Shown one piece after another: positions 2,200-5,868 of a DNA stretch of 32,873 nt. Below the pieces are notes generated by a model that was given only the letters and a program-made list of their open reading frames with translations, did not search any database and was not told where the DNA came from. This DNA comes from Fimbriiglobus ruber (GTDB taxonomy: Bacteria > Planctomycetota > Planctomycetia > Gemmatales > Gemmataceae). The stretch's first letter is position 1. The number at the start of each line of letters is the position of its first letter. The stretch is from NCBI RefSeq assembly GCF_002197845.1, contig NZ_NIDE01000016.1, positions 1-32,873 on the forward strand, written 5' to 3'. Made by a program: the position numbers and the translations under genes.

Positions 2200-2805
2200 T
2201 TATTCGACCCCGTACGCGCGAAGGGATTTCATCTTGCTGATCGATTCCGTCATGGTGGCCGTGGCGGTTCTGGTCACCGGAATGACGGGCACGCCGGCGC
2301 GTTGGAGTTCGTCGTTGATGGCCTCGTACAGTTTCGGCGGCAACACGGCGGCGTCCAGCATGCCGGCGTCGAAGAGTTTACGGGCGGTGCTGGCGATCGG
2401 GTGCAGGTCGGGTGGCAGCACCACCGGATCGGTATTGCAGATCACGACGTGGGGGCAGAACGAGCCGTGCGTTTGCACGAATTCGGCCGCGTTCTGGGCC
2501 GGGATGCCGTTGTCGATCCAGAACTGCTCGGATCGGTGTTCGGGGGGCGCGGCGTTCAGCAACATCGGGAGGGTGGATACGCGGAGGAAAATCTCCCCTT
2601 GGCCGCGCTCGTGCGCCCCGATGGCAATGTCGGTGAGTATCTGCCCGGAGTCCTTCTGCACGGCCGGGAAGAACACGTCCAGTTTCACGTTCCCGAAGTC
2701 GTCGGAGAACTCCACCGGCAGGCGCGAGTATCCCTCGTAGGAAACTTCTTGATCAAGTTGCGAGTCCGGTCGGCCGGTATGCAGGGAGACGTACGCGGTC
2801 ACCAT
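2200..2805 (-). CDS. Tail-fibre-region protein with YVSLHT domain
   Basis: This is a 201-residue ORF starting at ATG 2805, one base after the TAG of the Tad2-like gene. The N-terminus (AYVSLHTGRP, then SYEGYSRLPV) has the same layout as the protein at 3063-3491 (VYVSLHTADP, then YTSYARVGV), a short domain found in phage tail proteins. The middle (residues about 75-120) and C-terminus are not recognised; the end is rich in Thr, Ala and Met. No signal peptide or membrane segment is visible. It is probably a tail or fibre component by position. Confidence 0.5.
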   Translation of the reverse strand: MVTAYVSLHTGRPDSQLDQEVSYEGYSRLPVEFSDDFGNVKLDVFFPAVQKDSGQILTDIAIGAHERGQGEIFLRVSTLPMLLNAAPPEHRSEQFWIDNGIPAQNAAEFVQTHGSFCPHVVICNTDPVVLPPDLHPIASTARKLFDAGMLDAAVLPPKLYEAINDELQRAGVPVIPVTRTATATMTESISKMKSLRAYGVE

Positions 2806-2806
2806 G

Positions 2807-2992
2807 CTAGGCCTGCCAGTCTTCCGCCAACATGTCGCCGGCGTTGGGGTGGTAGACCTGCGGGGGATGGTCCTTCGATTGCCATTGGATCACGCCTTCG
2901 CTCAGGAAGATGTGGGCGCCGTTGGCTGCCCACTCCTGGCGGGTGGCATTTCCCCCGGCCTTCACGGCCGCTAGTGCTTGTCCGAAATCCAT
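2807..2992 (-). CDS. DUF2829 / Tad2-like protein, candidate Thoeris anti-defence
   Basis: This is a 61-residue protein with a strong ribosome site (AAGGAGAAACT before ATG). It begins MDFGQALAAVKAGGNATRQE, continues WAANGAHIFLS, and ends PNAGDMLAEDWQA. The MxFgeALxxlKaGxxvxRxgW start and the DxLAeDW end are the two hallmarks of the DUF2829 family. Members of this family from several phages (Tad2) bind and sequester the cyclic ADP-ribose-type signal of the Thoeris defence system. This copy is shorter than the roughly 90-residue examples: the loop between the hallmarks is reduced. Its place between two fibre genes is a typical slot for accessory cargo. Family assignment is fairly secure from the motifs; anti-Thoeris activity is inference. 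Confidence 0.7.
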   Translation of the reverse strand: MDFGQALAAVKAGGNATRQEWAANGAHIFLSEGVIQWQSKDHPPQVYHPNAGDMLAEDWQA

Positions 2993-3062
2993 AGTTTCTC
3001 CTTGGGTTTGAAAATAAAAGACGGCGGTAGTCTAAAAGTGATAGCAGATTACAAAAAGCGCC

Positions 3063-3491
3063 TCAACTCAATGTCAGCGTCGAACTCGTAGAAAGTTGGG
3101 GCGTGACGCCGTTACTCACTGCAATTGTTGGAGAAATCGCGCCTGCGAAGAACAACAGGGTGGACCCGCTGGCGGACTGGCCGAGGCCGGCGTAAGATTC
3201 GGTTTCGGTGCCGCCCGTGGCGGCCGGGAAGCTGATCGTGGCGACCGGGACCACCGTATTCGTGCTGACCGTCCACCCGCCGGACGTGCGGGCGACGCCG
3301 ACGCGGGCGTAGCTGGTGTACGCCGCCTCGCTGGTGGCCTGGGTGCCGCTGGTGGGGTCGGCCGTGTGCAGGGAGACATAGACGTTCGTGATCGGGGACG
3401 AGGTGGCGTTGATCGCGATGTTGGCGATGGTGGTGGCGTTGAAAATCAGGGCCAGAAGATCGCCTGCGAAGGTCGGGTTAGTGCCGGTCAT
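3063..3491 (-). CDS. Tail-fibre-region protein with VYVSLHTADP domain
   Basis: This is a 142-residue intact ORF, ATG at 3491 with AAAAGGA upstream, ending TGA. The sequence NVYVSLHTADPTSGTQATSE followed by YTSYARVGVARTSGGW is a conserved phage tail-protein domain. The C-terminal half is Ser/Thr/Ala-rich beta-type sequence (VATISFPAATGGTETESYAG). There are no cysteines or membrane segments. It follows a 245-base gap and precedes the Tad2-like gene by 70 bases. It is likely a fibre or fibre-associated structural protein; exact role unknown. Confidence 0.55.
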   Translation of the reverse strand: MTGTNPTFAGDLLALIFNATTIANIAINATSSPITNVYVSLHTADPTSGTQATSEAAYTSYARVGVARTSGGWTVSTNTVVPVATISFPAATGGTETESYAGLGQSASGSTLLFFAGAISPTIAVSNGVTPQLSTSSTLTLS

Positions 3492-3736
3492 AAGCGGTGT
3501 CCTTTTATGTTGTGGAAGTGAGGGAAATGCGTGTTCGGAAATGCCGTCCCCGAGTCCCGGGTGGCATCACTCGCTTCGGAGACAAGCATGCTCGGCGTCG
3601 GGCGCGAGGCAGAGGGGATAACGGACATGAACGGCTTTCGCGAACGAGATGCGGTGTGTCAGATTTGTGCCATTCCGACTTCAAAACATCTCGATGCGAG
3701 AACGGCTGGTAACCATTAAACGTATGATTGAATTAA
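3492..3736. other. Intergenic gap, no gene supported
   Basis: This 245-base gap separates the tail spike from the next tail gene. Several short plus-strand frames cross it but lack family resemblance or convincing ribosome sites. I see no clear terminator hairpin with a T-tract and no consensus promoter. The only functional element visible is the AAAAGGA ribosome site for the 3491 start. Confidence 0.5.
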
Positions 3737-5195
3737 TTAGTTATAGATACCTCCGTTGTTGGTGCTGCCGGCGGCATTGCCGGGCAGAAATGTCGCGCCG
3801 GAGCCGCCGGTGTAGATGATGCCGCCCGTCGACGCGAGATAGCGGGTGCCGGTGGCCGAGCCGCTGAACGTGCTGGCCGAGCAGGTAATGACCCCTCCGC
3901 CGTGGCGAACGCGAATTGATTACTGAAAGCGGGCGTGCCCGTGAGGGTAACGGTGTTGCCGGCTTGGAGGAGAAAGGTGGAACAGGATTCGGCTTCGATA
4001 TGGGCCGCGGCGTTGCCGGAAATGGTGTATCCGTTATTCGCGATAATCGCGGCACTGTACCCGGAAACCATGTGCGTTTGGCTGGTACTCGTGCCAAAAA
4101 TAATTCCCGCATTCAGTTGAATGACGCCGCCGTACTCCGCCTGCAAACAATTATTGCTGGTATTCGCCAATTCGAGATTTTCCAGCGTGAGATTCGACCC
4201 GCTGCCTTGCACCATGACGGTGCCGCTAATAATGGTGCTGCTGGGCGAACCGGAATTGCCATTAATGAGGACGCTGTTGACGCCGCCCCCGACCCACGGC
4301 TGCGAAACTGTTGCGGTTCCGGAATACGTGCCGTTCGCCAAGCTGATCGTGGCCGTAAACCCATTCAAATCATAGGAGTTTGCGAGCACAGTTATGGCGT
4401 GCTGGATGGTGGCCCAGGGGGTGCCAGAAGCCAGGCCGGTGTTCGAGTCGCTCCCGGTCGTCGAGACGTAAAACGTCGCGTTGGCCCCGAGGCGGGTACG
4501 GCCGGGTAGGTCTTTCGCCCAGTAATTCGATCCGTCGGAGAAGACCGCGCAGCGTTGGCCGGGACCGAGGATGATGGTGCCGGTGCTGCTGCCGTTGAGG
4601 TCGGTCCCACTGCCCGGGGAGAAGGCATATAGCGCGGAGGTGTCGTTGTTTTCGGCGATCGTGCTCCACCCCTGGGCGAGAACCCCGGGGCTGGTTCCCG
4701 GAAGTGTATCCGTCATCAGGGTGCCGGAGTTGGAGCGGAGGGTGAGATACCCGTTGTCGCCGGCCGCGAACGTGTGCGACGTGCCGGTGATGGTCTGGGT
4801 CGTTTGGACCTGCGTGACGGGGTTGACGACCACCCACTTCGCGGAGGGCGGGTATCGGTGTTCGAGCCGACCAGCGATTGGTAGACCACTCCGGCGGATA
4901 GGACGCGGGCGTATTGCCCGTACGAAAACGGGGTGCCGCCGTTCATGGTGGTCGTGATGAACGGGGGCGTGCCGAACTGCTGGTACGCCTGGATCGCCGT
5001 GGTGATGTCGTTGAGAACCTGGTTGATCGACGTCCGCGGGACGTTGAACCCGCCGGACCCGACGGGCGTGCTGTAGCCGACCGGGTAGCCTTGTTCGTAG
5101 CTGACCGTGCCACTGGGTTGGGTGGCGTCGGGAATGGTATTGAGGTCGCCGCCGACGGCGAACGGGATGTCGAAATAGCCGTCAATTGGGCACAT
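3737..5195 (-). CDS. Tail spike with predicted parallel beta-helix, two frame breaks
   Basis: The gene begins at ATG 5195 with TTTGGAGG eight bases upstream, inside the end of the DUF2612 gene. The N-terminal 110 residues (MCPIDGYFDIPFAVGGD..., then SINQVLNDITTAIQAYQQFG) look like a baseplate-attachment region. After a linker comes FYVSTTGSDSNTG followed by TPWATIQHAI, the usual entry to a pectate-lyase-type right-handed beta-helix. Repetitive turns follow (TLENLELANTSNN, GYTISGNAAAHIEAES). Frame breaks occur near 4850 and 3900; the corrected end reads GATFLPGNAAGSTNNGGIYN before TAA at 3739-3737. I infer a receptor-binding spike, possibly a polysaccharide depolymerase. No catalytic residues can be assigned by eye. 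Confidence 0.65.
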
Positions 5196-5198
5196 GCG

Positions 5199-5868
5199 TT
5201 AGCCTCCAAAGATTCCGTTGTCGAAGTTGAAGTCCCCGGTCGCGAAGCCGAAGTAGACGAGCGTGGCGTCGATCCAGGTGGACTGAACGCCGGCCGGCCG
5301 GGGTAGGATGTCGTAGCTGTTGAACAGGTACTCCAGATCGAACGTGACCGGGAAGTTGAACACGTAGGCCTGGGCCATGTCGTGGTAGTCGATGAGCCAC
5401 GCCTGCCCGAAGTTGCGGAAGACGTACGCGAGCATCCGGTTAGTTTCCGGCACGGTCCCGCTGCTCGTCAGTTGGAAGTACCGCAGTTGCAGGGCGATCC
5501 GCTTGGTTTCGGTGGGCAGGTCGTAGCTCGTACTCCCGCCGAAGATGCCGTTGTCGAAGTTGTACCCGGTCTGGGCGTCGAACCCGAAGACCGGGCCCGT
5601 GGGCGTGCCGGTATTCACGAACAGGGGGAGGCCCAGAATGATCGACCAGACACTCAGGCCGAAGTCGTTTGCCGTCGCCAGGTCGAAGACGTTCGTGTAC
5701 CAGTCTTCCCAGAACTGCGTCTGGTTGGCGTATACCAGGCGGCTTCTGATTCAGCAACCCCTGAAGATTCGTGGCTGTTGTGTATTGCCAGATAATCGCC
5801 CGCAGCAGGTCGACCGAGAAATCGAACTGCTGGATCGCTCCGGTATCCTCGTCATTTGTGAACGACAT
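5199..5868 (-). CDS. DUF2612 baseplate protein, one frame break
   Basis: The start is ATG 5868 (MSFTNDEDTGAIQQF). A break near 5745 switches to the frame reading RLVYANQTQFWEDWYTNVFD, then LATANDFGLSVWSIILG. That FWxxWxxxVxxLxTAxxxGLxxWxxIxG pattern is the signature of DUF2612, found directly after baseplate J in many myoviruses. A long C-terminal part follows, with two similar segments: YNFDNGIFGGSTSYDLPTET and the terminal FNFDNGIFGG. Family role: baseplate wedge or tail-tip protein next to the fibres. It overlaps the ribosome site of the spike gene. Family confidence is good; precise role is inferred from position. Confidence 0.7.

Follow-up and report, generated by a model that had tools for sequence, protein, structure and literature searches.

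A short Tad2-like gene between two Gp80-type genes in a tail module of Fimbriiglobus ruber

The gene, its neighbours and its copies

The window analysed here, 32,873 nucleotides long, is the entire contig C16 of the Fimbriiglobus ruber genome (12.36 Mb in 20 contigs; the carrier genome below). A short open reading frame (ORF) of 61 residues is read on the minus strand from 2992 down to 2807; plus-strand reading of 2807–2992 gives a different product with a stop. The product starts with MDFGQALAAVKAGG and also contains DMLAEDW, and the 61-residue protein with both ends of the DUF2829/Tad2 signature, proposed earlier from the letters of the sequence, is thus present. Its proposed place among tail-module genes is borne out as well, with a Gp80-family gene upstream and a second Gp80-like gene (Gp80-like2) downstream. 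The locus has the following features:

2200–2805, minus strand: Gp80-like2 gene, downstream, 201 aa, starting 1 nt after the Tad2-like stop (PF23140 18.8 bits, below the cut-off; relatives follow the Tad2-like gene in outside loci L120, L121, L122 and L267)
2807–2992, minus strand: short Tad2-like ORF, 61 aa plus stop (ORF call, PF11195 46.9 bits, predicted Tad2 fold, six of six own-genome copies intact, pN/pS 0.13)
2849–2884, minus strand: codons 37–48 (WQSKDHPPQVYH), clade motif in the beta-3/beta-4 hairpin (invariants in four lineages; hairpin in the model of the L267 relative)
2915–2938, minus strand: codons 19–26, stretch from beta-1 to beta-2, W-A-A-N where longer members have WNG (alignments and DSSP of two models)
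2998–3003, minus strand: ribosome-binding site AAGGAG, 5' of the start codon (sequence; in all six copies)
3063–3491, minus strand: Gp80-family gene, upstream, 142 aa (PF23140 fibre family 41.4 bits, cut-off 27; best PHROGs match phrog_240, 'head protein')

The profile search against DUF2829/Tad2 that had been proposed as a check gave a PF11195 (Tad2-like) match above cut-off, at E 3.9e-12 and 46.9 bits (cut-off 25) over positions 1–71 of the 73 in the profile. By its score, this match is far from chance. The closest PDB relatives of the protein by sequence are solved Tad2 sequences, and a profile built from a 32-row alignment retrieved seven distinct solved Tad2/AcrIIA7 sequences in the PDB. 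In PHROGs the protein matched phrog_1048 and phrog_872, families of longer proteins of unknown function. NCBIfam gave no match for the three proteins searched, and PADLOC gave none for five proteins; as a canonical relative was among the five, this negative is uninformative.

The labels for the upstream gene disagree, Pfam placing it in the Gp80 fibre family and PHROGs in phrog_240, 'head protein'. Judging by an excerpt of the paper on Anabaena phage A-1(L), the gp80 of that phage is another protein of the same name. Genes further upstream match tail fibre and baseplate families (PHROGs), and the window also holds homologues of tail sheath, major head, portal and terminase proteins; we therefore take it to be a contractile-tailed prophage or part of one. 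A consensus scan of 2700–3600 for sigma-70-type promoters, with other promoter types outside its range, gave no match, and a moron-style promoter of the gene's own was dropped on this result.

In the carrier genome the gene is present six times, on five contigs (C1, C4, two on C5, C15 and C16). All six copies are intact, encode four protein alleles and have an AAGGAG box before the start. Over ten pairs of five copies (C15 was left out, its gene being identical to that of C16), pooled pN/pS was 0.13; the downstream gene gave 0.15 and Gp80 0.14. The variable sites of the Tad2-like gene fell 4, 2 and 14 times on codon positions 1, 2 and 3. Because the copies are intact and pN/pS is 0.13, we conclude that this is a working gene; it is under purifying selection comparable to that on its neighbours. 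It is extremely improbable that the ORF is a decaying remnant or a chance frame. Frame-shifts are apparent in some neighbouring fibre-type genes, both of the window and of other copies, but every copy of the Tad2-like gene is intact under strong constraint, and 15 residues are invariant in its outside relatives. A chance ORF is ruled out by the profile score, the constraint and the outside relatives. Among 392 genomes drawn from the phylum, PF11195 was found in two, the carrier genome counted, and a profile of the clade described below in the carrier genome only.

The six copies of the gene lie in related tail regions (loci L045–L049 and the window) that share 79–99.8% identity over aligned pieces, with 99.6% between C15 and C16 over 9.1 kb. 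Between Gp80 and the Tad2-like gene, four of the six (C1, C4 and both on C5) carry an ORF with helix-turn-helix and HNH domains (L049:11996–12793, minus strand), which is absent from C15 and the window; its domains were checked in the C1 copy. By eye, an ORF 3' of Gp80 in L166/L167 resembles it. In the window, the fibre and DUF2612 genes at 3733–5868 (minus strand) show apparent frame-shifts. In C15 the fibre frame is open over a longer stretch (486 aa), and other copies have their own breaks. The breaks may be real decay or sequencing error.

Predicted fold and pocket motifs

AlphaFold2 modelled the 61-aa protein with a mean pLDDT of 88.9 in the best of five models (range 69.9–88.9). A second structural aligner superposed all 61 residues of this model on ten solved Tad2 entries (Z 9.1–10.4, rmsd 1.4–1.9), the next row after the Tad2 entries standing at Z 4.1. 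With Foldseek, the 21 best matches were all Tad2 structures (query TM-score 0.79–0.86, E 0.004–0.03), with no match at E 0.001 or better in the two libraries searched. The model of the relative from outside locus L267 reached pLDDT 96.6 and Z 10.6–12.0 against solved Tad2, and its six Foldseek matches at E 0.001 or better were all Tad2. For both models, the non-Tad2 rows for the fold were mitoribosomal proteins (Z 2.8–4.4), and the non-Tad2 matches among the 50 Foldseek rows listed for each were weak, with no clear tail protein among them. On the evidence of these models the 61-aa protein is predicted to have the Tad2 fold. The assignment to the Tad2 family and fold thus held up, with the PF11195 match and 61 of 61 residues aligned to solved chains. 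Several of the solved fold relatives have nucleotide-type ligands, judging by entry titles.

The earlier statement that the protein lacks most of the middle of the family signature needs qualification. Its centre is short relative to solved Tad2 proteins of 88–104 aa, but only about 10–11 residues are missing relative to 71-aa relatives. The deletion lies in the link from beta-2 to beta-3 and spares the other strands.

A review of Tad2, in the part available, places the gcADPR pocket in the beta-1/beta-2 loop, the beta-3/beta-4 loop, strand beta-4, the beta-4/alpha-3 loop and helix alpha-3, describes a homotetramer with pockets between protomers in which helix alpha-2 is part of the dimer interface, and ties a long insertion of some members to cyclic dinucleotide binding. 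We compared pockets at the level of these elements, assuming that the review's strand numbers are those of our models. By the alignments and DSSP of the models, WNG falls in the stretch that joins beta-1 to beta-2, and W..SQ lies at strand beta-4 and the loop after it. All seven solved Tad2/AcrIIA7 sequences have GWNG, and five of them W..SQ (the two ModTad2 sequences read W..SV). In the 32-row alignment, GWNG occurs in 28 of 28 and W..SQ in 25 of 28 rows other than the own-genome alleles. Neither motif occurs in any of the four own-genome alleles; in the 61-aa protein the WNG columns read W-A-A-N and the W-x-x-S-Q columns Y-H-P-N-A, where SPO1 has W-V-P-S-Q. The loss of WNG weighs more than that of W..SQ, because ModTad2 lacks the Q.

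Counted by domain length, WNG was found in none of 15 domains of 62 residues or fewer and in 110 of 120 longer ones, so that its loss, seen also in 10 longer domains, is not confined to short ones; W-x-x-SQ-x-D, found in one of the 15 and in 104 of the 120, is common and not universal. A first count covered 145 domains (129 distinct, one partial one skipped), with WNG in 0/14 short and 107/115 longer domains and W-x-x-SQ-x-D in 1/14 and 99/115. Six loci were added to it, one short with neither motif and five longer (WNG in 3/5, W-x-x-SQ-x-D in 5/5). The 15 short domains come from only four groups (four from the tail-linked clade, eight rhizobial, two rumen bacterial and L088) and were partly retrieved with short queries, so the rows of the length count are not independent.

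The original prediction saw a minimal sponge for the Thoeris signal in this gene, which our comparison does not support: WNG and W..SQ, which lie in elements that the review reports as lining the gcADPR pocket, are lost, and this argues against the usual binding of gcADPR or His-ADPR. Loss of all pocket residues, named beforehand as a finding that would speak against a Tad2 role, was seen in part. WNG and W..SQ are gone, but the C-terminal D53, A56, D58 and W59 (D-x-x-A-x-D-W) are retained and a different conserved motif occupies the same region. The protein also lacks the long insertion between the middle strands of the HgmTad2/SptTad2 type, which speaks against a cyclic dinucleotide site like that of other members. 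No helix is modelled in the deleted middle. Given the place of helix alpha-2 in the dimer interface reported by the review, assembly may differ, and the usual Tad2 dimer interface may be missing in the short protein.

The solved members show how far the likeness goes. SPO1 Tad2 (gp34.65; PDB 8sme, 8smf, 8smg, 8wje) shares the predicted fold over 61 of 61 residues (Z 9.4–10.4) and the N- and C-terminal signatures, but has 90 residues and the WNG and W..SQ that the short protein lacks. ModTad2 (8v3e, 9eib), SptTad2 (8wjd) and HgmTad2/AcrIIA7 (8kbi group) share the predicted fold at Z 9.1–10.4. ModTad2 resembles the short protein in missing the Q of W..SQ, and differs from it in keeping GWNG; the SptTad2/HgmTad2 type differs in the insertion that the review ties to cyclic dinucleotide binding.

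These comparisons bear on whether the gene is an accessory 'moron' encoding a classical anti-Thoeris Tad2, which would, for all its divergent residues, bind 1''-3' gcADPR or His-ADPR. Family, fold and the retained D-x-x-A-x-D-W speak for this, W..SQ is not strict even in solved binders (W..SV in ModTad2), and a structural module of Klebsiella phage NKA196 also has a longer Tad2-like gene, which follows the one for the major capsid protein. We nevertheless consider it decidedly unlikely: all 15 short domains lack WNG, which 110 of the 120 longer domains and all seven solved sequences keep, Y-H-P-N-A replaces the W..SQ segment, and no Thoeris locus was detected in the carrier genome, in searches whose STALD part was without a working positive control. 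That genome gave no match to ThsB-type TIR (ThsB_TIR) or to SMODS cyclase, the controls of both searches being positive; with STALD it gave no match and the positive control was likewise silent. It has nine TIR_2 and five SIR2_2 matches, every TIR_2 being at least about 200 kb away from any SIR2_2. These Thoeris and CBASS results say little about other hosts of the phage.

Relatives in other phage loci

With Gp80 as bait we obtained 66 viral loci, four from the carrier genome and 62 from outside. A Tad2-like ORF follows Gp80 directly in three of the 62 by profile (L120, L121 and L122, two distinct sequences, as L121 and L122 are identical over the 700 bases compared), and a second bait, an alignment of the downstream protein, added L267. 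Against PF11195, the three distinct outside proteins score above the cut-off, at 33.0, 31.3 and 35.6 bits. The order Gp80, Tad2-like gene, Gp80-like2 thus recurs in three distinct outside loci (L120; L121/L122; L267), where the Tad2-like stop overlaps the next start; in the window 1 nt separates them. In L119 and L123, Gp80 is followed by Gp80-like2 with no Tad2-like gene between, so that three of the five distinct outside loci in which the Gp80/Gp80-like2 pair was seen have the gene. Identity between window and outside loci is 38% for the Tad2-like protein, 35–41% for Gp80-like2 and 66–76% for Gp80. In L267, the Gp80 frame (2388–2811) is split near its start.

The Tad2-like proteins of the window and the outside loci share their length class and, at only 38% identity, the motif W37-x-S39-x-D41-H42-x-x-Q45-x-x-H48, all six residues of which are invariant across four lineages. 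Of the 15 residues invariant across these lineages, six fall within the 12-residue segment 37–48 and nine in the other 49. The segment comprises the end of beta-3, the beta-3/beta-4 turn and strand beta-4 (a hairpin in the L267 model), and the turn and strand beta-4 are among the elements that the review reports as lining the Tad2 pocket. Fisher tests of the segment gave 0.096, 0.025 and 0.005 for three pairs and 0.033 for the invariants, values that are descriptive only, the segment having been picked after seeing the alignment. We read this tail-linked short variant of the Tad2 family as new, and our searches of an open-licence library gave no published report of it. Shortness alone is not new, as short DUF2829 proteins are already in databases.

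The tight and repeated coupling to Gp80-type genes points to a tail role, and is weakened by the loci without the gene. The Tad2 fold may have been re-used in the tail module, where the protein would serve Gp80 or Gp80-like2 as a small partner, chaperone or subunit and its D-H...Q..H motif would perhaps bind a surface sugar or ion; we regard this as the main alternative, if a somewhat improbable one. The shared three-gene order, with stop and start overlapping or 1 nt apart, fits it, as do the similar divergence of the Tad2-like protein and Gp80-like2 beside a more conserved Gp80 and a pN/pS like those of the flanking genes. Nor is the fold limited to phage proteins that stand alone: in two rumen bacterial loci (L050:4116–5210 and L060:3006–4118) a short Tad2-like domain forms the C terminus of a GDSL-lipase-like protein, with an MBOAT acyltransferase gene upstream of the fusion in L050. 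However, L119, L123 and the low count of three in 62 outside Gp80 loci mark the gene as dispensable for such a module, and the fold searches listed no clear tail protein. Two further matches were dropped as chance, one to a Thermus phage 'lectin-like' entry (E 0.5), which lay on the opposite strand of an annotated gene, and one to Pseudomonas phage Haddon (E 5).

Other short members of the family occur in different surroundings. Rhizobium phages encode short DUF2829 proteins (16-3 p046, RHph_TM3_3_14B and relatives) that resemble the 61-aa protein in length, in matching PF11195 (in the two tested) and in lacking WNG (in eight), but the three named ones lie near genes for MazG-like NTP pyrophosphohydrolases or HD-type hydrolases (L089:3570–5004, L100:3001–4705, L101:2639–3974) and the three aligned ones lack D-H-x-x-Q-x-x-H. 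The 60-aa DUF2829 protein of Klebsiella phage KpS110, compared by predicted structure, is similar in length and fold (TM 0.85 over the query). Elsewhere Tad2-like genes also lie beside ribonucleotide reductase, and among the neighbours of longer relatives no PHROGs family was dominant (92 of 110 listed neighbours; none above 2/92). With Tad2-like genes in so many contexts, a domain match alone gives no function.

Candidate functions

Fold and selection together indicate that the protein does something. The reading we prefer, which we hold tentatively and put a little short of an even chance, is that it belongs to a distinct clade of Tad2-fold proteins, is short and stand-alone, and is predicted to bind a small ligand with changed specificity and so to blunt a host defence. 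The gene, between two Gp80-type genes in the tail module, would be read in close coupling with the downstream one. The ligand would most likely be a signal induced by infection and derived from a nucleotide or NAD, but different from 1''-3' gcADPR. From the conserved hairpin motif in the pocket region we infer that binding was kept and re-specified. We count for the ligand binder the PF11195 match, the Tad2-fold models, the purifying selection, the hairpin invariants and the nucleotide-type ligands of solved relatives. Against it we count the loss of residues typical of solved binders, the lack of a helix in the deleted middle and, in the carrier genome, the absence of ThsB-type TIR and SMODS matches and of any TIR_2 within about 200 kb of SIR2_2. 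In addition, given the negative sigma-70-type scan and the tail-module position, the gene may be expressed late, which would be odd for a sponge.

In a further reading, which we think unlikely, a Tad2-fold protein would have become part of the phage tail or be loaded by it. As a subunit that binds a ligand and is produced in step with a Gp80-like protein, it would either recognise a surface ligand or be carried in at injection to capture an alarm signal ahead of phage gene expression.

For the family, this clade shows that replacement of the usual family motif residues need not break the predicted fold, and it ties a short Tad2-like form to the tail module in several phages. PF11195 proteins are being called anti-Thoeris on their domain match, for example in a rhizobiophage paper, whose authors, in the text available, state that its role remains to be determined. 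If the D-H...Q..H motif of the short ligand binder proposed here does bind another signal, it would point to a defence messenger or surface ligand as a new partner of the Tad2 fold; if not, the clade would be a warning against calling anti-defence function from PF11195 matches alone.
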